IMG/VR virus record: IMGVR_UViG_3300038701_001252 | Coordinates: 1-42,281 of that record | Length of the DNA stretch: 42,281 nucleotides | From: a virus | Direction: 5' to 3' (one strand) | Shown here: in pieces, positions 6,937 to 41,421 of the stretch | Layout of the letters: every line of letters starts with the position of its first letter | Numbering within the stretch: position 1 is the stretch's first letter | Notes under the pieces: generated by a model | Database searches by the model: none | Seen by the model: the letters and a program-made list of their open reading frames with translations, nothing else | What the model was told of the DNA's origin: nothing | Program-made: the position numbers and the translations under genes

Positions 6937-7157
6937 TATTCGCCACCTTCCATATATAGTTTTTCGTATGCTTCAACATTTTTAATTGGATACAAGACTG
7001 GAGATCTTTTTGATAATCCAAGCTTAATGTATTTAGGCCCCTTGTTATCTTTGCGCCACAGATACAGCGTCATGGGGTGCAGTCCCCACCTCTCTGCCAG
7101 CTGCTTTGTTGTTAGGTGTTTTTTTTGTGAGTCTCTTTTAGATGAGTTCTTACTCAT
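6936..7157 (-). CDS. Excisionase/MerR-like helix-turn-helix protein
   Basis: 73 residues. LTTKQLAERWGLHPMTLYLW (about 15-34) is a clear HTH of the HTH_17/Xis-like group, followed by the wing-like segment SPVLYPIKNVEAYEK. The start overlaps recT by 4 nt. These proteins act as excisionases or small regulators. With no integrase in the genome a directionality factor has no partner, so a role in transcription or in recruiting a replication or recombination complex is likelier here. Confidence 0.7.
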   Translation of the reverse strand: MSKNSSKRDSQKKHLTTKQLAERWGLHPMTLYLWRKDNKGPKYIKLGLSKRSPVLYPIKNVEAYEKLYMEGGE

Positions 7158-7984
7158 ATCGGAACCTCATCTTCAGAGACTGAATTATTGGCTGATGGCT
7201 GAACATTGATAACCTCGCCATCATCTGACTCCCCAACTAAGTCTCTCAGCCTGGATGACGTTTCAGCAGGACGCTCAGGCTCATTTATATTTTTCTCAGA
7301 CTCATTGGCTGACTTATCACTCTTTAGATCATAAAAATCATTATCACTATCCATGGCCATATCTAAGTCTGTACTGCTTGGCAGTCTTTTATAGAGTCTT
7401 TTAATGGCTGACTTACGAATCATTTCTGATCTAAAAGGCCCTTTCCACGGAGTGTTGTTACCTCTGGACGTTTTCTCAATAGCTAGAATATCTTCATTCG
7501 TTAAAACCTCAATATATGTTCCACCGTCTTTTGTTACAGCCATAGCGTAGACTGCTATTGTGTCTCCGCGCTCAGAAAATAAATTCGGTTTATGCTTTAT
7601 GTGCTCACCATCCGAATCAATCCAATATTCGAAATCATCATTTTTATAAACAATATTACTGTTTATGGATTTAATTTCACCTGAGTTTCTAGCTAGCTTC
7701 ATTAAGCCCTTAACCATAGGCATGAATTTAGCCTGATCCTTGAACGGCACAAGAGCCGCCTCCTCTCCATTAGGCATTAACCCTGCCTGACTACACTTAA
7801 CTAACTCTCCATATAGACTTCTGCGATCACATTTAAGTAATTGCGGGCTTGTCTGAATTGCCGTCATGGCTGTTCGTATAAACTTCTTTGGGTTTATGTG
7901 GCCTGGCAGTGCTTGTTTAAACTGATCTTCCATTTTCATCAGTGATGTTCTGATTTCATCTGCTGGCGATAATTGTTTGCTCAT
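7154..7984 (-). CDS. recT: RecT-family single-strand annealing protein
   Basis: 276 residues with the RecT signature through residues about 25-220: TAIQTSPQLLKCDRRSLYGE, QAGLMPNGEEAALVPF, and PWKGPFRSEMIRKSAIKRL, the conserved end of the annealing core. The last 60 residues are acidic and probably disordered. It anneals complementary single strands during phage recombination and possibly replication. Its start overlaps the YqaJ exonuclease gene (ATGA), the usual partner that makes the 3' overhangs RecT loads on. Confidence 0.9.
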   Translation of the reverse strand: MSKQLSPADEIRTSLMKMEDQFKQALPGHINPKKFIRTAMTAIQTSPQLLKCDRRSLYGELVKCSQAGLMPNGEEAALVPFKDQAKFMPMVKGLMKLARNSGEIKSINSNIVYKNDDFEYWIDSDGEHIKHKPNLFSERGDTIAVYAMAVTKDGGTYIEVLTNEDILAIEKTSRGNNTPWKGPFRSEMIRKSAIKRLYKRLPSSTDLDMAMDSDNDFYDLKSDKSANESEKNINEPERPAETSSRLRDLVGESDDGEVINVQPSANNSVSEDEVPI

Positions 7985-8949
7985 TTTGTCTCTCCCTTTT
8001 TCTTGTTTTTAAAAACCCTAAAGTTGCGATAGCTTTTCCTGGTAAAGCTTACCTGTGATTCACCGACAATGCCTGCAGATATAGAGAACCCATCTCCTTT
8101 GACTTTTTCAGCGTCTCCTATTTTCGTTAACAGCTCAGCTTTGATAGCTTCTTTTTCTTTTTTCATTTCTTTTTCTGCACTGGCAAATTTATTATAAAGC
8201 TCTACCAACAGTCCAATGTCATCATCTCCAACTGCATCAATGATTTTCCCAGGCTCAGCCATGTTATATAGTTCGCTTATAAATGCGGCATCACGTTTAA
8301 AGTCAATTTCTGGCGGCTGATTTTTATCTATAGAATCCCAGAACTTTTTAATTTCTTCTTTGATTCTTTTAATAACTTTTTCATCTCGAGTTCTCTTTAA
8401 TAGTCTATAGTCGTTGCCACCAACTAGTACGCCGATCCAAACAGTATCGAGTCCTGTGACCATGAGTTGTTGTTGAATTTGTATTTCATAATATGGAGGG
8501 GCCTCGATTAGTTCGCCATTATCATTCAGCGCCCACTTATCTTTAAACTGCAGGTAATCAATGTTTTTTATTTCAAGCAAAGCCTCTGTTGTTTTAACAA
8601 CAATGTTGGATATCTTCTCAGGTATGGCTATTAGGAAATCAAAACTAGAGCCTGTGCGTTCACCCTTGAGTCGTGCGTACTCTTTAAATGGCTTCATGAT
8701 CCAGCCGTTATCCTCGGCGATCCCCGCAGCGATGGCTGGCTCTAGATGCCTACCCCAGAACATGCGCTGGTTCTCATCTATGCTTACAATCGATCCATTC
8801 TTTTTTCTGTGCCACAGCTCAAATTTGGTGATCCATGGGCTTAGCCCGAATAGCGCCGCCACTTCGGTGCTGGAGACATCCTCAGATTTCATTTTAAGCC
8901 AGTGATCGTGCGAATCAGGCATGATTATTTCTAGGTTATTGGGCTTCAT
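7981..8949 (-). CDS. YqaJ-family viral exonuclease
   Basis: 322 residues of the lambda-exonuclease/YqaJ recombinase fold: SEDVSSTEVAALFGLSPW (about 22-39) near the N-terminus, an acidic active-site region with SSFDFLI and EIKN (the E-x-K of PD-(D/E)XK nucleases), and a Q-rich IQIQQQLMVTG helix. It should resect double-stranded ends 5' to 3' to feed RecT. The N-terminal Met could be at 8949 (4-nt overlap with the upstream stop, chosen) or nine codons later. The C-terminal third has a charged helical stretch. Confidence 0.88.
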   Translation of the reverse strand: MKPNNLEIIMPDSHDHWLKMKSEDVSSTEVAALFGLSPWITKFELWHRKKNGSIVSIDENQRMFWGRHLEPAIAAGIAEDNGWIMKPFKEYARLKGERTGSSFDFLIAIPEKISNIVVKTTEALLEIKNIDYLQFKDKWALNDNGELIEAPPYYEIQIQQQLMVTGLDTVWIGVLVGGNDYRLLKRTRDEKVIKRIKEEIKKFWDSIDKNQPPEIDFKRDAAFISELYNMAEPGKIIDAVGDDDIGLLVELYNKFASAEKEMKKEKEAIKAELLTKIGDAEKVKGDGFSISAGIVGESQVSFTRKSYRNFRVFKNKKKGETK

Positions 8950-15091: not shown

Positions 15092-15610
15092 ATGATAAAG
15101 CATTTCCCAGACTCTGAGAAAAACCTGCTAAGCCTCCAGGCCAATCCTGAGGAGACAACATCCACACTCTATCGGCATATAGCCTCTGGTGGCGATATCA
15201 TGGGGCTATGCGATATCTTTAAGGTTAACTACGCAGACTTTATGTTTTGGTTCAGGAAGGATAGTGAGAGATCTAAGGTCCTAGACACAGCCTTTACTGA
15301 TCGTAATGAGTGGTTCAAAGAGACTGTGCTCTCAGAGGCCCGTAAGCTGGCTACATTTGACGCTCGTGAGGTATTTGATGATGAGGGCAAGGTTAAAGAT
15401 CCAAGCGAATGGAGCGATGCTGTGGCCTCAATGGTGGCTAACATGTCTGTAACTTATGATGGGGATGGGAATCCCACATATAAAGTAACCATGTGGAAAA
15501 AAGAGAAGGCTCTTGAATTACTCGGCAAGTCAATCAAGATGTTTATTGATCGCATCGATCATTCTGGGAAGATGAGTCTTGAGGATTTAGTGACAAAAAG
15601 CTACGAATAG
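15092..15610 (+). CDS. terS: Terminase small subunit
   Basis: 172 residues. The N-terminal half (about 1-60) is a helical HTH-like DNA-recognition region. The C-terminal half matches phage small terminases: FDAREVFDDEGKVKDPSEWS, then KVTMWKKEKALELLGKSIKM, FIDRIDHSG, SLEDLV. It should recognise the packaging site and regulate the large subunit. No good SD precedes ATG 15092, and I see no better start. Unusually, the large-subunit gene is not next to it: a 4.5-kb adhesin block intervenes. Confidence 0.78.
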   Translation: MIKHFPDSEKNLLSLQANPEETTSTLYRHIASGGDIMGLCDIFKVNYADFMFWFRKDSERSKVLDTAFTDRNEWFKETVLSEARKLATFDAREVFDDEGKVKDPSEWSDAVASMVANMSVTYDGDGNPTYKVTMWKKEKALELLGKSIKMFIDRIDHSGKMSLEDLVTKSYE

Positions 15611-15628: not shown

Positions 15629-15934
15629 TTGGGGAATAGCACTAAAATACATGCGCTTAATGAAACGGCTGACTCCAATATTACAGCTGAAACTATCGGC
15701 ACAGAGCGCGGCATAAACGTAGCCCCAATGGCGTTGACTACCAGGGTTGACACTACTTCTGAATCAGACGTTATTTATATCGGTAGCGCAAGCCCTGGGT
15801 CCGCAACATCCGAAGCCGTTTGGCAGATAATAAAAATAACAATTTCTAGCGGTGATGTTTCTATAATATACGCAAATGGCGAAAAGAATTTTAATAATAT
15901 TTGGGATAGTAGAACGGGGCTTAGTTATTCATGA
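15629..15934 (+). CDS. Small tail-associated protein, unknown
   Basis: 101 residues from TTG 15629, chosen for the G-run leader 6 nt upstream. The sequence (DVIYIGSASPGSATSEAVWQ, then YANGEKNFNNIWDSRTGLSYS) resembles small beta-rich proteins encoded just before fibre or tail-tip genes in many phages. Its stop overlaps the start of the 1143-aa fibre-like gene by 4 nt, so the two are probably coupled. It begins a block with more C- and G-ending codons than its neighbours. Confidence 0.6.
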   Translation: MGNSTKIHALNETADSNITAETIGTERGINVAPMALTTRVDTTSESDVIYIGSASPGSATSEAVWQIIKITISSGDVSIIYANGEKNFNNIWDSRTGLSYS

Positions 15935-18900
15935 GTGATTTTAAATTAGTTAAACTACTAGACGAGCTCGGGATAAACATAAACATCGACAACGATGGCT
16001 TGCTTCATAAATTCGATGCCACCGCCGATCCGACAGTTACCGACGATACGGCTGCGGGTTACGGAGTCGGTTCTCGCTGGGTGAATGTCACAAGCGATGA
16101 GGCATTTGTGCTTGTTGACGCGACAAACGGTGCGGCTGTATGGCAGAGCACTACCTCTAGTAGTACAGATATAAATGCTAAGGTATCTAGTAACGACACT
16201 ACGACTGGTTTTTTAGAAGACAAAATAGTAGCTGGCACGAACGTTACTGTGACTACGTTGAATGACGGCGCTAACGAAACGCTAGAGATTAGCTCTTCGG
16301 GCGGTGGCGCCTCACCACTAACGACTAAGGGTGATCTATACACTTACGACACGGACGACGCGAGGCTGGGTGTTGGTTCTAACGGCGAAGTGTTAATCGC
16401 TGACTCTGCCGAAACGACAGGTCTTCGCTGGGGTGCCGTTTCAACAACTGATGAGCTTCTTAAAGTTTCAAGTAACGACACCACAGCCGGATACTTAGAA
16501 GATAAAATTGTAAGCGCAAACAATAGAATCTCTGTCTCCACTTTGAATGACGGCGGCGATGAGGATCTACAGCTTACATTAAATGAAGGGAATATCGATC
16601 ATGATGCCCTTACGAATACACATAATCTTACGACAGATATTGACCATAATACGATAACTAATAATCACAACCTGACTACAGATATAGATCATGACACAAT
16701 CACCAACACGCATAACTTAACTACTGATATAGATCACAATGCTTTAACGAATTACGATGTAGGTCAGCACAGAGTAATAAATGACGCTGGTACAAGCGCG
16801 ACAGAGCTTTGGTCTGCGAGCAAGATAGACACCGAGCTTTCTGGTAAAGCCGACACTTCACACACTCATAGCACCTCGGACATAACATCTGGCACGTTTG
16901 CTGACGCAAGGATCTCTGAGAGTAGCGTCACTCAGCACGAGGCCGCTATAGATCATGATGCCTTATCTAACTTTGTGGCGAATGAGCATATTGATTGGAC
17001 GCAGGCGGGTGCAGGCACCATACACGCATCTAACTATGTTGATAATGACACAATTTATACGCATCCAAATCACACAGGCGAGGTTACATCAACTGGTGAC
17101 GGTGCGCAGGTCTTAGACCCAACTGCTATATCAAATAAAACATTAGTTACAGCCGTTTCAGGGGACATGGTTTTAATAGAAGACGCGACAGACGGACTAT
17201 TAAAGCGTGTTAATGCCAATGACTTTTTAAGTGGCGGCGGGATTACAACTATTGACGCTGCTACAGATACTGATTTCACATCACTGGCAGAAGGCGAAAC
17301 TATGCGCTGGGACAACAGTGCTAGTGATTGGATAAACACAAGCCAGATATTAATCGGCGATGACACTATTGCCCTGACTCCAACGGCTCCAGGCACTAAC
17401 CCTTACTCTGTGGTTGTAGACGGCGCTGGCACTAACTTAGTTGAAAACGCAATATTTGAAAATAACATAACTGACTTTTGGAGTGCTGAACTAACTCCCA
17501 CGCTTACTTACAACACTACTGAGCAGTACATAGGTAGCGGGTGTTTAGAAATAGATACTAACGTTATAAACGAGGGCGTAAGAAGCGATGCTATTACGGT
17601 TAGCTCAAACACTGATTATGTTTATTCTATCTGGATCAAGGGAGCAGTAGGCGACGAGGACGTTTATATCGGCGTGGACTTAGACTCTACGGGTATTTTA
17701 AACGCTGTCTCAGACAATGTTTTTGCGGACAGCTTTGTAATTATCAATCCTGTCACCACTGGCTGGCAGAGAGTATTTTTTCCATTCACAACGGGCGGCA
17801 GTGATACAAGTGCTGAGCTCTTGATTCGATCAAGATCTGGTGACACTCAAAAGTTTTATGTGGACGCCGTACAGCTAGAGCAGAAGGACGCTCCGGCATC
17901 AAGTGACGAAGTGAACGCCCCGACCACCTTTATATCTGGTGACATGGGCGAGGGGTATAGTTGGTCTGGAACGGCTTATAACAGCACGGCCTCAAGAACT
18001 GCGGGCGCTAAGTTCCTATCCCCAATTACGGGCGGCAGGGGAAACTTTGCCATAAGAGAAGACGGGACTATAGCGAGATTTTTTGCAGACGCTGGTGAGA
18101 ACCAGTGGGGTGACTTTGGGAATGTAATTGAGCCTAACTTTCCGTTTACATTTAATGGCAACATCAAGAGTAACGTAACGACGAGCGGTGTGTCGGCAGG
18201 TGTTGTGAACATACAAAACCTAGCAGACGGTAATGCCCTGAGTGTTTATTCAGAAAATACCACAGCATCAACCTTGGTTGTCTCGGGGCCATCGGCTACT
18301 TCGGGAAATATTTTAGCAATATTTGCTCCGGCGGACCTAACAAACTTTACTGGCTCCTTTTTGACCTTCAGTGGTAAAGCCCAAGACGCAGAAATGTACC
18401 AATTCAAAAGGGACTTTGTTCAAAACGGAGCCTTAAGTTTTCAGTATGGAAAAGATGTAATCACTTATGGCGGGGGTTCGCAAACATCTACGGCTAGGGT
18501 TTTGGCTGGCACTGTTTCGGCGACCAATGGTAGCCCCACAGTTACTGGTTCTGGGTTTTTAACAGACTTTAGGCGTGGCCAAGCCATAGATATAAACGGA
18601 ACGATTTACTCAATCGCCTCAATAGAAAGTGATACGTCTTTAACTCTTACTAGTAATTATGGTCAAGCAACCAATGCGGCCCGCCCATATGATGGCTTAA
18701 CCGCGCAATATGCCCCACCGACTCTACAGCTTGAGGGCGCTTACGCTTACCACGGATCTACAGGCACAATCACCGGGGATTTTCTTTACGGTGTTTATGC
18801 CTCGGGCGGCAACGGACATTTAAGAGTTTTAAAGTCTTCTACTCGCGGCGCTGCGGCCAATCCAACTGCCGATGGCCAGGGTGACGGTATCGTCACATCT

Positions 18901-19362
18901 AGAGTAGTTGATAACTCAACAACTAGTATTTCTGCAAGCTCATCTGAGACCACGGTTGTGTCTGGCTACACGATACCAGCTTACGAGTTAAGAGACGGCA
19001 CGATGTTTAGGCTTAAGTTTTCAGGCAGCATGACAACGCTTGCTACGTCTACGACTATAACCTGGCGATTGAAGCTTGGTGGTAACACTATACTTACCTC
19101 ACCAGCTCAACAATCTGGCTCTACTGCGGCCTTAGAGTTTAAGGGAGAGATTGAGTTTGTTGGGACCTCAGACACAGCACAGAGATCCTCTATAAGCGTT
19201 ATGGGAAAAAACACTGGCACAGGCGCAGCTCTTACACACGGCATGGTTCACTATGAAACAGGCTCGGTTGATATGAGAATTGATAGAGCGCTTACGCTTA
19301 CAGCTCAGTTCTCGGATGGCTCTAGCATGGATGTTTACTTTAAAACACTGGAGATAATGTAA
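15931..19362 (+). CDS. Fibre-like adhesin / receptor-binding protein
   Basis: 1143 residues of mostly beta, fibre-like sequence. Two related segments with KVSSNDTT-x-G-(F/Y)-LEDKIV start near residues 82 and 177. Three 15-residue repeats of IDH(D/N)xxTNxHNLTTD and a partial fourth follow (about 223-250+). A carbohydrate-binding-module-like jelly roll lies at about 500-650 (WIKGAVGDEDVYIGVDLDS, FYVDAVQLEQ), a GTVSATNGSPTVTGSG module near 859, and a beta-rich C-terminal head from about 1020. It lacks the T7 gp17 N-terminal domain, so how it attaches is unclear; the 101-aa partner may help. It is the centre of an adhesin block between the terminase genes. Confidence 0.75.
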   Translation: MSDFKLVKLLDELGININIDNDGLLHKFDATADPTVTDDTAAGYGVGSRWVNVTSDEAFVLVDATNGAAVWQSTTSSSTDINAKVSSNDTTTGFLEDKIVAGTNVTVTTLNDGANETLEISSSGGGASPLTTKGDLYTYDTDDARLGVGSNGEVLIADSAETTGLRWGAVSTTDELLKVSSNDTTAGYLEDKIVSANNRISVSTLNDGGDEDLQLTLNEGNIDHDALTNTHNLTTDIDHNTITNNHNLTTDIDHDTITNTHNLTTDIDHNALTNYDVGQHRVINDAGTSATELWSASKIDTELSGKADTSHTHSTSDITSGTFADARISESSVTQHEAAIDHDALSNFVANEHIDWTQAGAGTIHASNYVDNDTIYTHPNHTGEVTSTGDGAQVLDPTAISNKTLVTAVSGDMVLIEDATDGLLKRVNANDFLSGGGITTIDAATDTDFTSLAEGETMRWDNSASDWINTSQILIGDDTIALTPTAPGTNPYSVVVDGAGTNLVENAIFENNITDFWSAELTPTLTYNTTEQYIGSGCLEIDTNVINEGVRSDAITVSSNTDYVYSIWIKGAVGDEDVYIGVDLDSTGILNAVSDNVFADSFVIINPVTTGWQRVFFPFTTGGSDTSAELLIRSRSGDTQKFYVDAVQLEQKDAPASSDEVNAPTTFISGDMGEGYSWSGTAYNSTASRTAGAKFLSPITGGRGNFAIREDGTIARFFADAGENQWGDFGNVIEPNFPFTFNGNIKSNVTTSGVSAGVVNIQNLADGNALSVYSENTTASTLVVSGPSATSGNILAIFAPADLTNFTGSFLTFSGKAQDAEMYQFKRDFVQNGALSFQYGKDVITYGGGSQTSTARVLAGTVSATNGSPTVTGSGFLTDFRRGQAIDINGTIYSIASIESDTSLTLTSNYGQATNAARPYDGLTAQYAPPTLQLEGAYAYHGSTGTITGDFLYGVYASGGNGHLRVLKSSTRGAAANPTADGQGDGIVTSRVVDNSTTSISASSSETTVVSGYTIPAYELRDGTMFRLKFSGSMTTLATSTTITWRLKLGGNTILTSPAQQSGSTAALEFKGEIEFVGTSDTAQRSSISVMGKNTGTGAALTHGMVHYETGSVDMRIDRALTLTAQFSDGSSMDVYFKTLEIM
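16597..16755 (+). repeat. Protein-level tandem repeat in fibre gene
   Basis: Three tandem 45-nt units and a partial fourth encode IDHxxxTNxHNLTTD. Between units 2 and 3, 13 of 15 residues are identical but only 4 of those 13 use the same codon. The regularly spaced histidines could bind a metal along the fibre shaft, as HxH motifs do in T4 gp37; this is inference. Confidence 0.75.
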
Positions 19363-20102
19363 TGGCAATAGACTTAGATCAGCTGGAAATAAGAATTGGC
19401 GAAAAGTCTGGAGCGGGGCGAACGAACCCTATCCGTTACGATGGGCCATCACTTACGGATGTATCTATTGTTGATGCCAAGGTAAAAAGTAGCCCTTGCG
19501 TTGCGATGAGGTGGCTAAAGGACAACTCTGACTATTCATTTGAAACCTTTGTTAGGCTCTCAGATTCTTCGGGCTGGCAAGGCGTTGTAATAAATAATAA
19601 GAACGACGGTTCTCTTTATAAAAAAATAGAAGTACCAATGAGGGGTGGCGAAGCATCAAGCCCACCGAGCCAGATATATATTAACAATTGGAAAATACTT
19701 TCTGAGGCCATCGACACCGTGAGTGGTGATTTAGATTTTGATGCTATGGAGACTCGGTTACTTCAAGACGTTGGTCAGGGCAATAACCCTATAGGTTACG
19801 GCGGCGGCTCGCTTGCTGGCGTGCCACTGGCTCAGGCTGGGGTGATGCGGAGTCCATGTCGAGCTCTTAGGTGGATGAGTGATAACTCTGAATATAGATA
19901 TGAAACGTTGGTTAAACTAAGTGACTTAGGTGGATCTCAGGGCATGTATGTTTACAGCAAAGAAGACGATTCATTAATTAGAAGCATAGGGAACCCAATG
20001 GGCGGCGGCCCGAACGACGATCCAGAGAGAAGAATATATAAAGATAATACGGCGATTATACTACAGGGTGTTTCATTAATTTACGAAAGTTTACAGGGGT
20101 AG
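19362..20102 (+). CDS. Tandemly duplicated two-domain protein, adhesin block
   Basis: 246 residues made of two copies of one domain of about 110 residues with a period of about 120: residues 5-113 and 126-233. Shared positions include NPI-x-Y, SPC-x-A-x-RW, DNS-x-Y-x-(F/Y)-ET, (R/K)LSD-x-x-G, a P-M-x-GG loop and a final IY-x-(N/D)N. Both copies keep one cysteine (46 and 166). The start overlaps the fibre gene stop (TAATG). I do not recognise the fold. Context suggests a fibre-tip, chaperone or receptor-binding subunit. Confidence 0.65.
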   Translation: MAIDLDQLEIRIGEKSGAGRTNPIRYDGPSLTDVSIVDAKVKSSPCVAMRWLKDNSDYSFETFVRLSDSSGWQGVVINNKNDGSLYKKIEVPMRGGEASSPPSQIYINNWKILSEAIDTVSGDLDFDAMETRLLQDVGQGNNPIGYGGGSLAGVPLAQAGVMRSPCRALRWMSDNSEYRYETLVKLSDLGGSQGMYVYSKEDDSLIRSIGNPMGGGPNDDPERRIYKDNTAIILQGVSLIYESLQG

Positions 20103-20104
20103 TT

Positions 20105-20329
20105 ATGGATAGATGTCCGCTTTGTTATACAGAAAAAGTAAATAATAAATGTCAGCCTTGTGACATTCACCTGAATGATTGGGAGTGGACGATGCTTGAG
20201 GCTGATACATATAGGAAGGTGATAAGTCACTTATATGATAGCAAAGATGATGGGCGCAGGAGAGAGCGAGCGCGGTGTAGAATTGCTTTAAAAAACATAA
20301 GTGGTATGGCCAAAGAAAATCTAACATGA
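20105..20329 (+). CDS. Small zinc-ribbon-like protein, unknown
   Basis: 74 residues. CPLC near the N-terminus and CQPC about 10 residues later form a compact zinc knuckle, followed by HLNDWEWTMLEADTYRKVIS and a basic, helical C-terminus. It starts 2 nt after the duplicated adhesin gene and overlaps the large terminase start by 4 nt (ATGA). That coupling suggests expression with packaging genes. Family not recognised. Confidence 0.6.
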   Translation: MDRCPLCYTEKVNNKCQPCDIHLNDWEWTMLEADTYRKVISHLYDSKDDGRRRERARCRIALKNISGMAKENLT

Positions 20330-21807
20330 GAGGCCGAGAGCTGATTAAAAAGTGGAGGGATGATCCGTGCAGCTTTGTAAGAGAAAACTTTGGTGTAAAT
20401 CCTGATGTTTGGCAGGAAAAAGCCATTATCGCTTTTGCCAATAAGGAAAATAAAATATTTAGATTGTCATTACAGGCGTGCGCGGGGCCAGGAAAATCTG
20501 CCCTACTCGCCTGGATGGGCTGGTGGTTTCTATTATGCTGTGGTGAGAAAGGAACTCACCCTAAGGGTGCAGCGATATCTATCACTCAAGACAACTTAAA
20601 AGATAACTTATGGTCTGAATTGTCTAAGTGGCAGCAGAGGTCTAAGACTTTAACTGATTTATTCACATGGACCAAACAGAGGATATTTTCTAAGGATCAT
20701 CCTGAGACTTGGTTTCTTTCGGCTCGATCATTTTCAAAGACTGCGAACAGTGAAGAGCAGGGTCGGGTTCTATCTGGTGTTCACAGTAAATATGTTTTGT
20801 TTTTAATAGATGAGTCTGGGGATATTCCACCAACTGTTTTGAAGGCTGTTGAGCAGGCGTTTAGTACTGCAGATAAAGAGTTTGGTCGTGTTATCCAGGC
20901 TGGGAACCCAACATCTCAGGATGGAATGTTGTATGCGGCTCAATCACAGCTAGCAGATGAGTGGCATGTTGTTCGTATTACTGGAGATCCAGATGATCCA
21001 GATCGTTCACCTCGTATTGATATCGAGTGGGCACGCCAGCAGATAGCGACTTATGGTAAAAATGATCCATGGGTTATGAGTTATATCCTTGGGCGATTTC
21101 CTGAGTCAGGCATTAATACATTGCTAAGTGTTGATGATGTTGAAGATTCTATGTCTCGTAATTTATTGATTACTGACTATGATTGGTCACAGAAAAGATT
21201 AGGCGTTGATGTTGCCAGGTTTGGAATGGATTCGACTATATTGTTCCCACGCCAGGGATTGAGGGCCTATAATTATGTCGAGATGAGGGGTGCGACTAAC
21301 CCTGAGATTGCTGCTCGAGTAGCAAGAGCTAAACATGACTGGGGCGCTGAGAATGAGTTTGTTGATGGCACTGGTGGTTTTGGAGCAGGTGTTGTAGATG
21401 CATTAAATCAGGCAGGTCACTCTCCTTTTGAAATTCATTTTAGTGCTAAGGCGAGTAAGCCCAGGTATTTTAATAAGAGAGCTGAGATGTGGTTTGAAAT
21501 GGCCGACTGGGTGAAACGTGGTGGTGTTTTGCCTAAATGTAATATTCTTAAAAAAGAATTAACCAGTCCTACGTATTCGTTTAAGAATGGTAAATTAATT
21601 CTGGAGCCAAAAGAAAAAATAAAAGAAAGGCTGGGCTTTTCTACAGATCGTAGTGATGCTTTATGTTTAACGTTTGCTCATCCAGATTTGCCTAAGAAAA
21701 GCTCTATTCTTGGTCGACTCGGCAATAGTTTCGATAAGGTAGTTAGTGATTACGATCCCTTGGAGGAGAGCTCAGGTCGAGTTGTTCATGACTTTGAGCC
21801 AACATAA
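20326..21807 (+). CDS. terL: Terminase large subunit (ATPase and nuclease)
   Basis: 493 residues. The motor has Walker A CAGPGKSA (about 51-58) and Walker B VLFLIDE (about 157-163) with the catalytic glutamate. The RNase-H-like nuclease shows its acidic residues in GVDVARFG (about 293), FVDGTGGFG (about 344) and TDRSDAL (about 438). It pumps DNA into the prohead through the portal and cuts it. The start overlaps the upstream zinc-ribbon gene by 4 nt. A strong promoter-like sequence starts at the base after its stop. Confidence 0.93.
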   Translation: MRGRELIKKWRDDPCSFVRENFGVNPDVWQEKAIIAFANKENKIFRLSLQACAGPGKSALLAWMGWWFLLCCGEKGTHPKGAAISITQDNLKDNLWSELSKWQQRSKTLTDLFTWTKQRIFSKDHPETWFLSARSFSKTANSEEQGRVLSGVHSKYVLFLIDESGDIPPTVLKAVEQAFSTADKEFGRVIQAGNPTSQDGMLYAAQSQLADEWHVVRITGDPDDPDRSPRIDIEWARQQIATYGKNDPWVMSYILGRFPESGINTLLSVDDVEDSMSRNLLITDYDWSQKRLGVDVARFGMDSTILFPRQGLRAYNYVEMRGATNPEIAARVARAKHDWGAENEFVDGTGGFGAGVVDALNQAGHSPFEIHFSAKASKPRYFNKRAEMWFEMADWVKRGGVLPKCNILKKELTSPTYSFKNGKLILEPKEKIKERLGFSTDRSDALCLTFAHPDLPKKSSILGRLGNSFDKVVSDYDPLEESSGRVVHDFEPT

Positions 21808-21925: not shown

Positions 21926-22375
21926 TTGTCTTTTTCAATTCGTCAAGCGGAGGAAAAATATCTTTCGCAGATCAAACATGAACTAAAGCTTTTCTCAGAG
22001 TTTTACAATAGTAAGCACAGTTTATATCCTAATGAAGATTATTTAAATGATGGCTTGAGTGAGTTTTTCAAGAATCATTTATTTTTAATTGCAGTCGATT
22101 CTGAGGATAAAGTTTTAGGTTTGATATCAGGACTCATCGCTCCCCACATCTATAACCCATCGTTAAGCGTACTGACTGAATCGTTTTGGTGGGTTAACCC
22201 AGAATATAGAAACTCTCGAGTAGGATATGCATTGCTTGATGCTTTTATAGAGCATGGAAAGAAAAACTGTGATTGGATCATTACGACCTTAGAGGACGAG
22301 AGTCCTGTTAAGGACAGTGTGTTTACTGAACGTGGCTTCTCCTTTAAAGAGAAGTCATTTTTGATGGAGGTTTAG
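21926..22375 (+). CDS. GNAT-fold acetyltransferase-like protein
   Basis: 149 residues from a TTG start. It shows the GNAT core: FLIAVDSEDKVLGLISGLIA, then WWVNPEYRNSRVGYALLDAF (about 91-110), the acetyl-CoA-binding motif A, although the usual Q/R-x-x-G-x-G/A is altered to RNSRVGYA. GNAT-like proteins commonly occur at this position in podovirus head modules (T7 gp13 is related), where they may be virion or assembly factors. It is first behind the strong promoter at 21808. Substrate and activity are unknown. Confidence 0.75.
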   Translation: MSFSIRQAEEKYLSQIKHELKLFSEFYNSKHSLYPNEDYLNDGLSEFFKNHLFLIAVDSEDKVLGLISGLIAPHIYNPSLSVLTESFWWVNPEYRNSRVGYALLDAFIEHGKKNCDWIITTLEDESPVKDSVFTERGFSFKEKSFLMEV

Positions 22376-33498: not shown

Positions 33499-36400
33499 AT
33501 GGCATCTGAATATGAAGAAATTGCTTTAACTTTGTTTGATAAAGAAGCGCAGGCTAGTGAGAACGTAAACACTCAGCCTGCGCCACAACAGGAGTCGAGT
33601 ACCGAATATGAATCGATTGCTACTGATCTATTCGGTAATCCAGAGCAGAACTTTAAACAATCTGCATTTGCTGCATCTAGGAAAGACTCTGGACGGATGG
33701 CTGAGGCTGTTAAGCTATCCAAGGATTTTAACTTACCGCCCGAATTTGTTGAGAGAAATTTAGACTCATTAAGAGAAAAAAGGTCTCAGCAAACTGATTT
33801 AGATTACGAGCGAATTGCAATGGAGTCTCCAGAGCTTTCTGACTGGTTAAGCAATCCAGTGAATGCGACTGTTGGCAAGAATGATGTAAATAATTTGCAG
33901 AAGGTTACTAAAAATAAAAATAGAATAAAGCCATACAATGATGAAGAGTGGCTAGATGCTGGTGGAGCTTTTGAGAGTGGCATGAATAACTTAGCCTCGA
34001 GCAGTGTTCATGTGGCTCATGCCTATGGGATGATTGATGCTGATACTGCAGCTGAAATTGTTGCTGCTAGAAATAAGGCGGCTCAAGATGCTAGAGAGCA
34101 GGCTCCTAGTTTTGCAAAAGAATATTCAAGAGTTTTGGAAAAAGAAGGTGGCGACATTGATAAGGCTGTTAACCAGTTTTTAGGTGGGGCTGAAGAGTAT
34201 AGGAAAGGCGAGATATTTAATGCCTTAAAAGAGTTCACAGTTGGTGGAGCCAAGACTGTTGGAGAGACTTTAGATTTTATTGGTGCAGCTACTGTGATGA
34301 GGCCGAGGGGTTTTATTAGATCAAGCATTGAGCAGGTGGCTAATATGGCTCCTAGTTTAGTAACTGGGTTTGCTGGGGCTAAGGTGGGCGCTACAGGTGG
34401 TGCTGCTATTGGTTCTGCGGCTCCTGGTATCGGGACTGCTGCTGGAGCTACAGTTGGGGGAATAGGCGGGTTTGTTGCTGGATCGTTTGCTGGTGGAGTT
34501 GGTGTTGAAGTTGGTGCATGGTTTAACCAAGAGCTTTCTGAGCGCGGCATAGATATAACGAATGCTCAGGAAATTAAGCAGGCCTATTCAAATAAAAAAT
34601 TAATGGCTCAGATTTTAAAAGAAGCTGAGAGAAAAGGTGTTACCACAGCTGGTGTTGATGCTGCATTTAACCTGTTCGCCGGTAAATTTTTAAAAGGCGC
34701 TAAGGGTGCAAAACTGTCTGGAAAAGCTAAGGCTGTTGCGAAGGAAGCTACTGTTCAAACAGTTGGTGAATCGGCTTCAGAATTTGCAGGCCAGGTCGCA
34801 GCTCGTGATGGTGACTTAGGTAAAGTAAGTTATGGAGACGTTGTAGCTGAAGGTATTTTAAGTTTAGGAACATCTGCTGGTGACGTTGTAATTGGTGGAG
34901 CTGTAAGATCCGTTAGGGAACAATACAGTCAGGATACAGTTGATGCCGCTGAGGAAATTTCAGTTGATAGAAACAGGGCTATGCAGGCTATTGAAGAGTC
35001 TCATGCTATTAAAGAGATGGCTGATGCTGCTATTGATTCTAAGACTCGTGAATTATCCCCTGAGGTATTTTCTGACTTAGTTGGAGATGAGCAGCAAGTT
35101 TATTTTCAAAATAATGAGTGGGATGAATACTGGAAATCTAAAGGCGAGTCACCAGTTAAAATGGCAGAAGAGCTGTTAGGTATAGATAGCTATAATGACG
35201 CGGTGGAGACTGGGCGTGACATTGAAATCGCTGCTAGTGAGATATTATCTAAGCTTGAAGACAAAGAGCAGTTTGATGATCTCATGGGAATACTCAGAAC
35301 TCAGCCTGATGGTATGACCTACACTGAGGCCAGTGAGTTTTTACAATCCATGCCAGAGACTATGAAAGAGTTATCTGAGGAGGCTGTTGAAAAGCAGGAC
35401 TTTATTGATCAAGCTGAAAAGTCAGCTCGTGAAATTCAGAAGCAAGTTGAGCAACAGTTGGTCGCGGCTGGTAGGAGTAAAGTTGAAGCGGCTCCTATTG
35501 CAGAGTTTTATAGAGTTTTAGGTATTCGTAACAGTCAAGATCCTCAGGAGTTGTTTAAAAAGTATGGGTTGAATATTCAGAAGGTTGATGGGGATGTTAC
35601 GGCTAGTGGGGATGTTTTATATCAGAAAGAAACTGATCCGCTAGGATTCTATTCTAAATTAAACAGTACCGTTGTAGAAATGGACTTCAAGTCAATCCCA
35701 AGTAAAGACCTAGCAAGCCGTTTAAAGAAAACCGATGGCCTTAAAAAAGAAGAGCTTGAGTGGACTGGTGTTATTGACTGGCTTGAGGCTGAATCTCGTA
35801 AGGTTAGTAAGGAAGAAGTCGCTGAGTTTTTAAATGGTGGTGGGGTTCAGATTGAGGAGGTTACTTTATCTGAGGCTAGTGAGTCTGATGAGCGCGGTGA
35901 ATACGACATAAGAGAAGTTGAAGATGATGATGGGGGAATTGTTTATGCTGTTGAAGATTGGGCTGGAAATGATATTGAAGTATTTGATAACGAAACTGAA
36001 GCTGAAGATTATATAGAAAGTCTTGTAAGCGAGGCTATGCCTACAAAATTCGAGGACTACTCCCTCCCAGGCGGCGAGAATTATCGTGAGGTTTTGTTGA
36101 CGTTGCCTCCTGTTGAGGTTGATCCAGGAACACTGAGCAGGCTCGAAGTAGACTATGAGGATATGCAGGCTCAAGCACAGAGAGCTGCAAAAGAAAAGGC
36201 CGATATAATCTTAGAGTTTTCAACTTTGTTTGCAAAAGAAAATGCAGACATGAGTGATGAAGCTCGCAGGATGATGTTTAAAGAGGTCAGGAATAAGATT
36301 GAATTTGCTGGTGAGGGAAGAAATCGACCAGAGGTTGACGAAAATCAACAGAGGTCTGTTGATGAATTTATGGAGTCTGATCAGTTCAGCGATGAATTAA

Positions 36401-39400
36401 AGCAGCTTTTTATGGAGGCTGTCATTGCCACAAAAAAGGAAACTGGCCTTAGCTTTCAAGAATATACCATGAGCAGCGAATTAAGAGATGCAAGGAAGAA
36501 TAAAAGCGCAAAGAACTACACCTCCTCCCACTGGGACCAAGAAAACGTCCTAGCCCACATGCGCTTAAGTGATCGTGTAGATAGTAATGGAAAGAAAACA
36601 TTATTGATTGATGAGATACAGAGTGACTGGCATCAGGAGGGGCGGAAGAAGGGGTATAAACAAGCTTCGATTGATGCTGATGTTATTGAATTTCTAAGAA
36701 ACGAAACAGATGGATTGCTTGATAAATTAATTGATAAGTATAGCTTAGAAGGTCCTGACTATAGAAGTAAAATTCAGGATATAGCCAATCAACAACGTGA
36801 TGGAGTCCCAAACGCCCCCTTCAAACAATCAGATGCCTGGGCCATGCTCGTATTTAAACGCGCCTTAAGAATGGCAGCAGAGCAAGGTTATGATGCTGTA
36901 GCGTGGACGCCTGGGGATGTTCAGGCTGAGCGGTATGATTTAAGTAAAAAGATAAGTAAGGTTTCTTACGATTCGCAAACAAAAACATTGGTGGCCGTTG
37001 ATCTAAATGGAACTCCTGTTATGACAGAATCGGTAGAAGAAAATAAAATTGACGATTATGTTGGGAAAGATGTTGCTGAAAAACTAGTAAATTCTGAGCC
37101 TAATGAGAGTGGCATTAAATCTATTGAGGGCGATGGCCTTAAAGTCGGCGGCGAAGGCATGAAAGCCTTCTACGATAAAATGCTACCTAAAGCTGTAGGT
37201 AAGTATATTAAGAAGCTTGATAAGTCTGCGAAGGTGGGGGTTGATTCTGTTGATGCTGGTGAGCGTGAGATAAGCGCAAGAGATGAAAAGTATGACGAAC
37301 TCAGGAAAGACATTAAAGGATTTTCGATTGATGACTTTAAAGTTGATGAATCAATATCTGACGAAGATAGAACTGTTTATAAGGTGCCAGCCTCTAATAG
37401 ATATTATACAGTTCAGCACTACAACAATGATAGTGTGGTTTACACAAATGAAGATGCTGATATCTATGGCGAGAGATTCAAGTCTGTAGATAAGTTTAAA
37501 GAAGTAATGTTTGGTGACATGACAGACAGGTCGGCCACCCAGCAAGTCTGGCACCTCCCAATAACAGAAAAACTAAAAGCAGAAGTCCTATCAGGACAGA
37601 CATTATTTCAAGATGACAAAAAGGGTTTCATAACAAAAGGCCCAACAGATTTCTTTAATAACATTACATTATTGAGAAAGGCAGATAAGTCTACTTTCTT
37701 GCATGAGTCTGGGCATTACTTTTTAGAAATACTAAAGGATATGTCAGCGCTTGATAATACTAGCCAAGAGATTAAGGATGACTTTCAAGGCATTCTTGAG
37801 TGGCTAGGTGTTGAGTCAGCAGATCAGATAGAAGTTGAGCATCATGAAAAGTGGGCGCGTGGTTTTGAGGCTTACTTAAGAGAGGGCAAGGCTCCATCTG
37901 ATAAATTAAGAAAAGCGTTTAATACGTTTAAGGTTTGGTTGACTCAGGTTTATAAGAACTTAAGGCAGCTTAATGTTGAGCTATCTCCAGATGTTAAAGA
38001 CATTATGAATAGAATGCTAGCGACTCAGGGGGAGATTGACGCCGCCAGAAAAGAGATGCGTGATGAGCCTCTGTTTACAGATCCAATAGCTGCAGGGATG
38101 AGTGAAGCTCAGGCTCAAAAATATCGTGATGCTCAGGGCATGGCTATGATCGCAGCTCAAGAGAAGCTACAAAAGAAACTCATGCGTGATCGTGAGAGAA
38201 AATTAAAATTAAAAAAGAAACCTATAAGAGATGAGATAACAAAGCAGGTAAATGAAGAGCGCGTATTTGATGCCATAAGTATCCTTAAAAAGGGTGTTCA
38301 TGCTGATGGTGCTGAATTGGGTGATGGTATCTCTGCCATTAAACTTGATAAGTCTGAGTTTGAAAAAAGGTTCCCACAGTTTAAAGGTAATCGAAATTTT
38401 TACGGCATGTTCTCATCTGAGAATACAGTCCCTATGGATATGGCAGCATCGATGTTAAATTACGCTAGTACTCAGGATATGGCTGTAGAAATAGCAAACG
38501 CTCCTAAGAAGCAAGACTATATTAACTCGCTGACTGAACAGAGGTTAAGTGAGATAGCTGATGATTTATTGAATAAGGATGTGATCGCAGTTGAGGCGAT
38601 GATGGACTACCATAATGAGGATCGAATGAAAAAGATCCGCATGGAGTATGAGCACATTGCCAGCAACAATAAGGGTGTTTCTAGGGAGATCACTCGTAGG
38701 GTTTCAAAAAGGCCGACTCCTCAGAAGCAAATTAAAGATCTTGCGATTAAATCTATTAATAATATGCCAGTTGGTAAATTAAAGCCTAACACATATCGAT
38801 TAGCTGAGAGACGTTTTGCAAAACTCGCAGGCCAGGAGTTAGCCAGGGGTGATGTTCAGGCAGCATTTGAAGCTAAGGAAAAAGAGCTATTCAATTATGA
38901 ATTATATCGTGCTGCTGTAGAGGCTAAGCAGACTGTTGATAAAAAGGTTAAAGATACTAAGAAGTTTTTTAAGAAGGATGAGGATTTAGCTAAAACTCGT
39001 GAGCTTGATTTTATAAATGCAGCTCGTGCAGTTCTGTCACGCTATGGTATTGGCAGAGCTAAGAATGATCCAATGGCTTACCTTGGTAAGATGAAGGAGT
39101 ATAACCCTGATGCTTATGAGACTGTAAGTTCTATTATTGTCGGTGTTATGGACGATCCAGATAACTATAAGAATATTGAGTATTCTAAGTTTAAGGATGT
39201 GATGGAGTCTATCCAGGCATTATGGGATTTATCTCGTGATGTTAAGACTGTTGATGTTGACGGCGTAAAGTATGAAATATCAAAAGCTGTAGAAGAAATG
39301 TCAGCTGATATGCAGAAATTTATTAAGCCTAAAGCTAAAGAAAAATATAACAGAACGGCTACTGATCTTGAGAAGATGAAGGTTGGTCTTTTAAGCGTAA

Positions 39401-41421
39401 AGGCTTTAGTTCAAAGATACGAGTCCTGGATTGACATTATGGACCTTGGTGATGTCAGGGGTTCGTTTAGGAAGTTTTTATTTACTAATATTTCTGAGGC
39501 TGTTGATAAGTTTGAAGTTCAGAACACTCAGTATAAGAAGCGAATACTAGAACTATCTGCACCAATAAAAGAAAATATGGATCTGACTAAGCCTATTCAG
39601 GCTGATGAGATTGGTTTTGAATTTAAAAACAAAGCTGAATTATTGGGAGCATTGATACACACTGGGAACGAATCGAACCTTAAGAAATTATTAGTTGGTT
39701 ACGGATGGGGCGAGCTTGATGAGAATGGAGACTTGATCCGAAGTAATTGGGATAAGTTTATTTCTCGAATGCAGTCTGAAGGTGTATTAACAAAAGAAGA
39801 TTATGATTATGTTCAGTCTCTTTGGGATCTGATGGAGGAGATTAAGCCTCAGGCTCAGAAGGCCCATAAGAAGGTGTTTGGATTTTATTTCGATGAGATT
39901 ACCCATAAAGAATTTGAAACCCCATTTGGTACCTATAGAGGTGGATATGCACCAGCCAAGGTTGATCCATTCGCTGTTACTGATATAGCTCGTAGGTCTG
40001 AGCTTGAGGAGTTTACAAAAAGCAATACAGCGTTTAACTGGCCAGCTGCTGGTGGTCGTGGGTTTACTAAATCTAGGGTTGAAAATTTTAATAAGCCATT
40101 AAATTTAAACATCGGTTTGGTTGGCAGGCATGTAGAGGACGCATTAAGGTTTGCTATTGTTAAGCCAGCAGTTGTTGACGCTGCTAAAATATCAGTGAAC
40201 CAAGAGTTTAAAACAGCGATGGGTGAGTTAGATCCTGTGGCGATTGATCAGATTATAAAGCCTGCTCTAAATAGAGCTGATAAAAACACTATACAGAATA
40301 CTGATCCTAGCAAGAACAGGGTTATGGGAGGCATTGGTAGGTTTCTTAAAAGTAGCGCCAGTGCTCAATTAATGTTCGCAAACGTGGTGAATACAGTGGA
40401 GCAGTTTGCAGGTTTTGGAATATCGGCTACAAAAATTAGCCCTCGGTATATAGCAAGGTCTGGGTTTAAATTTATGTCGAACCCTAAGCAGATGTCTGCT
40501 GACATTGCCGAATTATCTCCAGCTATGAGAACACGCTCTGATGAGCAGATGTTTGAGATTCAGAAGCAAGCTCGAGATATATTTAGTGAGAAAAACAATT
40601 ATACTAAAATGAAAGACTGGCTTACTAAACACACATATTTTCTACAGGCCTTTACTCAGAACATTGTTGATAGCATCACATGGCAGGCTAGTTATGATGA
40701 GTCTGTGGCCTCTGGATTAACTAACAAGGAAGCTATTAGAAAAGCTGACAGTGACGTTAGAACTACTCAATCATCGAGAAGATCGTTTGATGTTAGTAAT
40801 TTAGAGACCAATGAGACTCTGCAGTTCTTCCAGATGTTTATGAACTTTTTTAATATGCTGGCTAATGTAAATCATGCCAATTTCAGCAAGCTTTATTATG
40901 AAGATATTGGAATGAAAAAGAAATTCGCTAAGGGTTTATATTTATATATGGCAGGGTTTGCTGGTGTTGCCATATTTAGTGGGGCGCTCAGGAAGATGGC
41001 CGCTGGTGGTTTAGATGCTGATGATGATGATGAGTATTTAGATGATCTTTATGATGTATTAATTGGATCACAGATTGATCTAGGGCTAGCTATGATGCCT
41101 GTCGCGGGGCCAGCTATAAATGCTGGTATAAATAGGTATAACGATAAATGGTATGATGATCGAGTTTCAGCATCACCTGCAATGTCTGCTTTAACAACTG
41201 TTGTAGGGGCACCTGCTGGATTATTCGACAAGGATGGAGACCTTAGGAAGCAAGGTGTGCGGGATGGATTTACGGCACTTGGTATTTTAACTGGTATGCC
41301 ATTAAGGCCAATATCTAAGCCAATTACATATTTAATGGACGTAAGTTCAGGTGATGCTGATCCAACTGGGCCTATTGACTTTACGCGTGGTCTAGTTACA
41401 GGAAAACCTGGAGTTGAGTGA
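33499..41421 (+). CDS. Giant polyvalent ejection protein with zincin motif
   Basis: 2640 residues, 19% of the genome. Disordered N-terminus; glycine-zipper membrane-like region at about 283-340 (GFAGAKVGATGGAAIGSAAP); helical linker; polyvalent-protein associated domain at about 850-1375 with blocks YSLPGGENYREVLLTLP, NVLAHMRL, EIQSDWHQEGRKKGY, VPNAPFK and GEGMKAFYDKMLP; a zincin-like HESGH at 1402-1406; coiled-coil regions; and a C-terminal large polyvalent-associated domain ending in a hydrophobic segment (LYLYMAGFAGVAIFSGAL). By position it replaces T7 gp16, but I see no lysozyme or transglycosylase motif. It is probably injected with the DNA, carrying several effector activities. Five sub-segments have unusual codon use (see findings). 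Confidence 0.8.
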   Translation: MASEYEEIALTLFDKEAQASENVNTQPAPQQESSTEYESIATDLFGNPEQNFKQSAFAASRKDSGRMAEAVKLSKDFNLPPEFVERNLDSLREKRSQQTDLDYERIAMESPELSDWLSNPVNATVGKNDVNNLQKVTKNKNRIKPYNDEEWLDAGGAFESGMNNLASSSVHVAHAYGMIDADTAAEIVAARNKAAQDAREQAPSFAKEYSRVLEKEGGDIDKAVNQFLGGAEEYRKGEIFNALKEFTVGGAKTVGETLDFIGAATVMRPRGFIRSSIEQVANMAPSLVTGFAGAKVGATGGAAIGSAAPGIGTAAGATVGGIGGFVAGSFAGGVGVEVGAWFNQELSERGIDITNAQEIKQAYSNKKLMAQILKEAERKGVTTAGVDAAFNLFAGKFLKGAKGAKLSGKAKAVAKEATVQTVGESASEFAGQVAARDGDLGKVSYGDVVAEGILSLGTSAGDVVIGGAVRSVREQYSQDTVDAAEEISVDRNRAMQAIEESHAIKEMADAAIDSKTRELSPEVFSDLVGDEQQVYFQNNEWDEYWKSKGESPVKMAEELLGIDSYNDAVETGRDIEIAASEILSKLEDKEQFDDLMGILRTQPDGMTYTEASEFLQSMPETMKELSEEAVEKQDFIDQAEKSAREIQKQVEQQLVAAGRSKVEAAPIAEFYRVLGIRNSQDPQELFKKYGLNIQKVDGDVTASGDVLYQKETDPLGFYSKLNSTVVEMDFKSIPSKDLASRLKKTDGLKKEELEWTGVIDWLEAESRKVSKEEVAEFLNGGGVQIEEVTLSEASESDERGEYDIREVEDDDGGIVYAVEDWAGNDIEVFDNETEAEDYIESLVSEAMPTKFEDYSLPGGENYREVLLTLPPVEVDPGTLSRLEVDYEDMQAQAQRAAKEKADIILEFSTLFAKENADMSDEARRMMFKEVRNKIEFAGEGRNRPEVDENQQRSVDEFMESDQFSDELKQLFMEAVIATKKETGLSFQEYTMSSELRDARKNKSAKNYTSSHWDQENVLAHMRLSDRVDSNGKKTLLIDEIQSDWHQEGRKKGYKQASIDADVIEFLRNETDGLLDKLIDKYSLEGPDYRSKIQDIANQQRDGVPNAPFKQSDAWAMLVFKRALRMAAEQGYDAVAWTPGDVQAERYDLSKKISKVSYDSQTKTLVAVDLNGTPVMTESVEENKIDDYVGKDVAEKLVNSEPNESGIKSIEGDGLKVGGEGMKAFYDKMLPKAVGKYIKKLDKSAKVGVDSVDAGEREISARDEKYDELRKDIKGFSIDDFKVDESISDEDRTVYKVPASNRYYTVQHYNNDSVVYTNEDADIYGERFKSVDKFKEVMFGDMTDRSATQQVWHLPITEKLKAEVLSGQTLFQDDKKGFITKGPTDFFNNITLLRKADKSTFLHESGHYFLEILKDMSALDNTSQEIKDDFQGILEWLGVESADQIEVEHHEKWARGFEAYLREGKAPSDKLRKAFNTFKVWLTQVYKNLRQLNVELSPDVKDIMNRMLATQGEIDAARKEMRDEPLFTDPIAAGMSEAQAQKYRDAQGMAMIAAQEKLQKKLMRDRERKLKLKKKPIRDEITKQVNEERVFDAISILKKGVHADGAELGDGISAIKLDKSEFEKRFPQFKGNRNFYGMFSSENTVPMDMAASMLNYASTQDMAVEIANAPKKQDYINSLTEQRLSEIADDLLNKDVIAVEAMMDYHNEDRMKKIRMEYEHIASNNKGVSREITRRVSKRPTPQKQIKDLAIKSINNMPVGKLKPNTYRLAERRFAKLAGQELARGDVQAAFEAKEKELFNYELYRAAVEAKQTVDKKVKDTKKFFKKDEDLAKTRELDFINAARAVLSRYGIGRAKNDPMAYLGKMKEYNPDAYETVSSIIVGVMDDPDNYKNIEYSKFKDVMESIQALWDLSRDVKTVDVDGVKYEISKAVEEMSADMQKFIKPKAKEKYNRTATDLEKMKVGLLSVKALVQRYESWIDIMDLGDVRGSFRKFLFTNISEAVDKFEVQNTQYKKRILELSAPIKENMDLTKPIQADEIGFEFKNKAELLGALIHTGNESNLKKLLVGYGWGELDENGDLIRSNWDKFISRMQSEGVLTKEDYDYVQSLWDLMEEIKPQAQKAHKKVFGFYFDEITHKEFETPFGTYRGGYAPAKVDPFAVTDIARRSELEEFTKSNTAFNWPAAGGRGFTKSRVENFNKPLNLNIGLVGRHVEDALRFAIVKPAVVDAAKISVNQEFKTAMGELDPVAIDQIIKPALNRADKNTIQNTDPSKNRVMGGIGRFLKSSASAQLMFANVVNTVEQFAGFGISATKISPRYIARSGFKFMSNPKQMSADIAELSPAMRTRSDEQMFEIQKQARDIFSEKNNYTKMKDWLTKHTYFLQAFTQNIVDSITWQASYDESVASGLTNKEAIRKADSDVRTTQSSRRSFDVSNLETNETLQFFQMFMNFFNMLANVNHANFSKLYYEDIGMKKKFAKGLYLYMAGFAGVAIFSGALRKMAAGGLDADDDDEYLDDLYDVLIGSQIDLGLAMMPVAGPAINAGINRYNDKWYDDRVSASPAMSALTTVVGAPAGLFDKDGDLRKQGVRDGFTALGILTGMPLRPISKPITYLMDVSSGDADPTGPIDFTRGLVTGKPGVE

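Follow-up and report, generated by a model that had tools for sequence, protein, structure and literature searches.

What is the role of a small protein, built from two copies of one domain, that a phage encodes directly downstream of its fibre gene? The window analyzed here, the whole 42,281-nucleotide stretch of virus record IMGVR_UViG_3300038701_001252, carries on its plus strand an ATG-initiated open reading frame (19362..20102) for such a protein, with 246 aa and a pI of 4.7. It consists of two homologous halves of ~118 residues each, delimited by half-versus-half alignment (copy 1, residues 3-120, 19368..19721, +; copy 2, residues 124-240, 19731..20081, +). In a local alignment the halves are identical at 49/117 positions (42%), and the score of 240 lies 41 SD above that obtained with shuffled versions of half 2 (28.3 ± 5.1, maximum 53, n = 1000). 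A sequence-only reading of the locus had claimed such a two-copy architecture, and both the alignment and its details hold: NPI-x-Y, SPC-x-A-x-RW, DNS-x-Y, ET, LSD, M-x-GG and IY are present in both halves, each of which retains one cysteine. The domain alignment further shows conserved Gly-rich loops (YGGG and MGGG) and a conserved N-terminal NPI-x-Y-x-GG region. The DNA of the halves is alignable over one 46-base stretch only, and this near-complete loss of similarity suggests that the duplication is old.

That reading had also found no family to which the domain belongs, which was borne out at the thresholds used. The whole protein matched nothing in Pfam or PHROGs at E 0.001, in NCBIfam or PADLOC at E 1, or among PDB sequences at E 10. 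Four domain copies likewise found nothing in Pfam at E 10, while one of the four gave a chance-level match (E 0.18) to a PHROGs family of unknown function, and a domain profile returned a single, unrelated PDB sequence (E 1.7). At the level of sequence, the domain family is absent from the libraries searched (Pfam, PHROGs, NCBIfam, PADLOC and PDB sequences). Relatives were first found, in a viral contig collection, with one type of query only, a two-row alignment of the halves; a four-row alignment recovered the same two viral contigs and nothing in a genome contig collection, where a piece of the fibre found nothing either. A single-sequence search of the viral collection with the window protein, a phage tblastn with the window protein and with the single-domain and Cys proteins of G002 (both described below), and a plasmid search with the G002 single domain were all negative. 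Scans of this kind depend on short conserved peptides and may overlook distant relatives.

The two relatives obtained by this half-profile search, which had been proposed as a check on the duplication, are both single-domain proteins encoded 3' of a fibre gene. They have 125 aa in record G001 (contig L082, 41,878 bases) and 121 aa in record G002 (contig L083, 55,910 bases), come from the same metagenome (3300049489) and share the pI of 4.7. A one-domain form of the protein therefore exists. Identity is 71.9% between the singles and 49.1-53.4% between a single and either window half; with even rates, the duplication would date back about as far as the divergence from these relatives, or further. 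The singles agree at 87 positions, of which 51 are retained in half 1, 54 in half 2 and 38 in both (31.7 expected if the halves were independent). Positions kept by one half only are not clustered (p 0.67), and we rejected subfunctionalisation of the halves.

In each of these phages the domain gene is part of a larger unit. The window fibre gene (15931..19362, +) encodes 1143 aa, and the domain gene is followed by a gene for a 74-aa protein (20105..20329, +) with CPLCY...C..CD cysteines, which is zinc-ribbon-like by motif. The adhesin-block setting assumed from sequence alone is thus borne out, with a fibre gene directly 5' in the window and in both single-domain relatives, and the order fibre, domain protein, Cys-x2-Cys protein recurs in 3/3 phages with a complete distal fibre; in a fourth contig, L202, the fibre is present and the contig ends inside it. 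The fibres differ in length (1143 aa in the window, 833 and 950 aa in the others) and have their distal ~700 aa in common (residues ~442-1143 of the window fibre), while the Cys proteins have 74-98 aa and the pattern CPLCY...C..C. G001 and G002 are 71.2% identical in the distal fibre, 71.9% in the domain and 68.1% in the Cys protein; the corresponding values for the window against G001 and G002 are 53.6-55.2%, 49.1-53.4% and 53.4-54.1%. When the ORFs of all three were compared, the cassette genes were the only strong matches. Other matches to the window were a helicase-like one (25.7% over 152 aa) and one of 38% over 73 aa, and those between G001 and G002 covered 45 aa, 111 aa and a small pre-fibre gene (36.7% over 49 aa); antisense ORFs within the fibre gene also match, as a mere mirror of the fibre.

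The boundaries of the shared block fall within genes. Scored in 60-column blocks that contain 15 or more aligned residues, the other fibres are 7-35% identical to that of the window up to alignment column 480 and 27-76% identical beyond it. This rise places the start of the block inside the fibre gene, and DNA similarity between G001 and G002 starts inside the fibre and ends inside the Cys gene. Reading frames are tightly packed: the fibre stop and domain start of the window overlap in TAATG, with GGAG upstream, the domain stop and Cys-protein start of G002 overlap in ATGA, and the Cys-protein stop of the window overlaps the start of the terminase large subunit (TerL) gene. The cassette has a G+C content of 0.456, against 0.413 for the window. 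Promoter-like sites numbered 9 (10.7 expected) and terminator-like sites 8 (4.0 expected). Judged from these comparisons, the fibre, domain and Cys genes are a mobile adhesion cassette of otherwise almost unrelated phages. Two family assignments for the Cys proteins were rejected, DUF5767 for the 74-aa protein (19.9 bits, cut-off 26.9) and GrpE for its G002 relative (19.4 bits, cut-off 212).

The domain gene is known from n = 3 records, two of them from one metagenome. Among the six-frame ORFs of 184 loci of relatives of the window phage or its fibre, neither the domain (0/184) nor the Cys protein (0/184) was found, in a search that recovered the window's own copies of both. The domain was found in 0/50 full records in a search without a positive control, and in 1/26 records when G001 was included as positive control, the one being G001 itself.

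The G001 contig calls for some care. It contains two copies of the domain end and Cys-protein gene (L195:1-290 and L196:16617-16906), with the Cys genes identical over 117 bases and then diverging, and it has two TerL genes. The contig is probably chimeric, or else a recombinant with its junction at the cassette, and its apparent chimerism means that the right-hand neighbours of the cassette may belong to another phage. The two versions of the Cys gene point to a further phage with a Cys protein upstream of its TerL. Behind the second copy, which lies where the contig begins, come genes of head-completion and tail type as judged by order alone, among which a 595-aa gene taken for the tape measure found no match.

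The cassette does not occupy one fixed place. In the window it lies between the genes for the terminase small subunit (TerS, 15092..15610, +) and TerL (20326..21807, +). In G001 two small genes separate it from an upstream gene for a major capsid protein, which shares 28-29% identity with annotated major capsid proteins. Two small genes likewise separate the L202 fibre from an upstream gene with 45% identity to a 631-aa gene of G001. That 631-aa gene, for which no match was found, follows the right-hand TerL of G001, itself confirmed by annotated relatives, and by position only would encode the portal. In G002 small genes and an endolysin-like gene are nearby, and the cassette is not beside identified head genes. 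About 0.7 kb before the G002 fibre gene is a 213-aa ORF (L083:1074-1715), which by eye resembles a GIY-YIG endonuclease and could bear on cassette mobility.

Elsewhere in the window, the portal is ~44% identical to that of epsilon15, and a GNAT acetyltransferase gene (21926-22375) lies between TerL and portal, near the head genes. A 737-aa protein (263-2476) with a weak C1q match (E 0.00044, below cut-off) and a match to phrog_15750 is a possible second adhesin. Genes for a RecT-like annealing protein and a RecE-like exonuclease are found on the minus strand (7154-8949), and a 2640-aa protein with the large polyvalent protein domain LPD22 (33499-41421) takes up almost a fifth of the window.

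Do the accessory genes belong to the slot before TerL or to the fibre? We surveyed 49 distinct TerL loci, the window included, each with at least 2.5 kb upstream, using as TerS queries the window TerS and an L077 gene taken as TerS by position. A TerS-like gene occurs within 5.2 kb in 18/49 loci (the window's own TerS is just beyond that distance), and 10 of these 18 TerS-TerL gaps hold no plus-strand ORF of at least 45 aa in the gene list. In one of the 18, L077, the gap is occupied by a 492-aa gene that matches tail spikes and virion proteins. This relative of the window phage thus has a fibre-like gene in the same TerS-TerL slot (L077:2631-4567) without accessory genes, and the C-terminal domain of this shorter fibre is distantly like that of the window fibre (E 1.2e-4; 9.7e-4 in a larger set), suggesting that this end domain alone needs no accessory. 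Two further loci with no recognised TerS carry large genes directly before TerL, one of 411 aa matching one family of unknown function (L048) and one of 538 aa matching tail-fibre families (L011). As none of these three adhesin-like or large genes comes with accessories, the accessories appear to follow the fibre type and not the slot.

A fourth gene may belong to the cassette in some phages. Small proteins of 73-100 aa are encoded directly or a short way before the fibre (L202:3265-3567, L083:2214-2435, L082:5196-5483, L077:2631-2903), and weak matches link those of G001 and G002 (the 36.7% match noted above) and those of G002 and L202 (43% over 44 aa), whereas that of L077 was likened by eye only. 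These sequence matches support a fourth cassette gene for G001, G002 and L202. The window has a 101-aa protein in the same position (15629..15934, +), for which, at 14-26% identity to its counterparts, the idea is not supported. Small pre-fibre proteins (73-101 aa) are possible candidates for a fibre base or anchor.

Our best explanation, which we hold tentatively and at slightly less than even confidence, is that the 246-aa protein is a fibre-specific accessory of the mobile cassette, most likely a folding or capping cofactor in fibre assembly. The block that runs from inside the fibre to the accessory genes, its fixed order and its overlapping or abutting frames favour such a cofactor, being together the pattern that would be expected if the partner must match the distal fibre. 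In 3/3 phages the domain gene lies directly 3' of its cognate fibre gene and is exchanged with the distal part, as a fibre chaperone gene would be. The cofactor would be translated immediately after the fibre, through translational coupling, would bind the conserved distal part and help the fibre to fold or oligomerise, and may remain as a transient cap. In the window its gene has undergone an internal duplication, so that a single chain carries two domains where the relatives have one, with a possible effect on stoichiometry. Among the options raised by the sequence-only reading (bivalent binding, a novel fibre tip, or a chaperone), chaperone is the best.

Fibre modules of this general kind are documented in other phages. 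Alteromonas phages of different families are described as sharing a tail fibre and its cognate downstream chaperone (PMC10579305), and the Pam3 chaperone gp25 as binding the distal fibre in a 3:3 complex (PMC9608196). Like the Alteromonas A5/V22/P24 module of tail fibre and DUF4376 chaperone, the cassette is a block of fibre and small partner that crosses families; the A5 and V22 fibres are described as most alike at the C-terminus, as the window cassette shares its distal fibre, and the partner varies in size in both modules (PMC10579305). Unlike that module, which lies in the tail region, the window cassette sits among head and terminase genes, and its domain protein has no Pfam match, is predicted to have an alpha-beta-beta-beta-alpha fold and is internally duplicated. 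Against the cofactor, the fibre chaperones compared here (Mu Tfa, Pam3 gp25, A5 gp9/V22 gp27 and the intramolecular chaperones of K1F and T5) have helical trimerisation parts or other folds. Fibre chaperone families are present in Pfam, NCBIfam and PHROGs. A sequence match to a chaperone family of the Tfa or DUF4376 type was not obtained in Pfam at E 10, in NCBIfam at E 1 or in PHROGs, and no fibre chaperone was among the 50 matches listed in each structure search.

An AlphaFold2 model of the domain from four sequences (pLDDT 74.3, pTM 0.64) has an N-terminal helix, low-confidence residues 12-23 running into NPI-x-Y-x-GG, a helix at 43-52, strands at 57-64, 69-76 and 82-89, and a helix at 98-120. 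The domain is therefore predicted to adopt an alpha-beta-beta-beta-alpha arrangement, a common small fold, and the novel fold suggested from sequence alone is not supported. The full-length model has the same element order in both halves at a pLDDT of 49.9; the expectation that both halves share one fold thus stands for secondary-structure order, and beyond that it depends on this low-confidence model.

The nearest solved fold among the matches listed is T7 Gp1.2, an inhibitor of the E. coli dGTPase, and this finding, like the small number of carriers and the L077 fibre that has no accessory, argues against the cofactor. The predicted domain superposes on it over 73-74 residues at an rmsd of 2.3-2.5 Å, with a VIA Z of 8.3 that is near the best Z of 7-8 usual for models without a clear match; the next VIA entry outside Gp1.2 has a Z of 6.0. 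Foldseek also finds Gp1.2 (E 0.032, from the pLDDT 74 model), and an annotated dGTPase inhibitor tops a viral structure library (E 4.4e-3). On this view the protein would inhibit a host enzyme or defence system in the manner of Gp1.2, and its gene would simply be carried with that of the fibre; lower-ranked VIA matches to two phage proteins that act on host defences, RAZR-bound Gp77 (Z 4.6) and SPO1 Acb4 (Z 4.5), fit such a role. We nevertheless consider it unlikely: sequence identity to Gp1.2 is 8%, the domain profile misses Gp1.2 among PDB sequences although its structures are in the PDB, the fold is common, with dsRBDs and HPF in the same match list, and the window domain differs in its extra N-terminal NPI-x-Y-x-GG region and its duplication. 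The gene context of Gp1.2 also differs from that of the cassette. A free rider would not be expected to stay in one gene order beside the same distal fibre when the three phages are otherwise unrelated. PADLOC gave no match, which bears little on counter-defence since PADLOC holds defence proteins. The same linkage weighs against an accessory of unrelated function (superinfection exclusion, regulation or dsRBD-like nucleic-acid binding) that is merely linked to the fibre. We regard this as improbable, even with dsRBD-like arrangements among the VIA matches at Z 4-6; the acidic pI of 4.7 also argues against nucleic-acid binding, as far as overall pI can tell.

Alternatively, the protein could be a structural part of the adhesin, sitting at the tip or base of the fibre in the virion, where the duplication would provide two binding or docking sites per chain. 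Its gene is directly 3' of, and co-transferred with, a fibre gene encoding a carbohydrate-binding domain, and the conserved YGGG and MGGG loops are compatible with such a role. Tips that set host range are usually the most variable part, whereas the domain and the distal fibre are conserved to the same degree, which counts against a tip, and no tip adhesin or lectin fold was among the matches listed, so that this role seems fairly unlikely to us.

Whether the fibre itself is borne by the tail or the head affects the reading of the whole cassette. The window fibre contains a carbohydrate-binding/GTA head-spike-fibre domain (17416..17901, +; NF048003 at residues 496-657, Pfam CBM_4_9 at residues 502-634), and 4/4 cassette-type fibres pass the NCBIfam GTA_spike_fiber cut-off of 36 bits (window 53.8, G001 39.1, G002 49.1, L202 53.2). 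Given these matches and the gene positions, the possibility that the cassette fibre is a capsid spike, and not a tail fibre, has to be taken seriously. The head spikes of RcGTA are described as binding the capsule and as made up of a pentameric base with a flexible fibre (PMC7296036, PMC10218006). These spikes consist of the base Rcc01079 and the fibre Rcc01080, and the cassette resembles them in the GTA_spike_fiber matches of its fibres and, for the window and G001, in its position beside genes of the head or of packaging. It differs in having two extra downstream genes, in small upstream proteins that are only candidates for a base, and in fibres of 833-1143 aa, compared with the 325 aa given for the RcGTA fibre (PMC7296036, PMC10218006). 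In all three fibres searched for CBM_4_9, this domain coincides with GTA_spike_fiber, so the latter match could indicate that the fibre binds sugar, and not where it is located. Two observations speak against a head spike: PHROGs labels part of the window fibre "tail fiber", and its residues 859-926 show similarity to a distal tail protein (single-sequence E 0.018, profile E 2e-4). The cassette as a transferable capsid-spike module, in which a long sugar-binding head fibre with its dedicated, hitherto undescribed folding partner (duplicated in the window) and Cys-x2-Cys protein would be inserted among head and packaging genes and exchanged among unrelated phages, is a possibility that we hold to be rather unlikely.

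Taken together, our findings describe a family of small proteins that the searched libraries lack, with a testable partner in its fibre. If the protein is a chaperone, it would bring a new fold to fibre-assembly proteins, and its one-domain and two-domain forms would offer a natural comparison for stoichiometry. If the fibre is a head spike, capsid adhesins would move between unrelated phages as self-contained modules, and such head-borne exchange, beside tail-fibre swapping, would bear on how phages change their adhesion targets.
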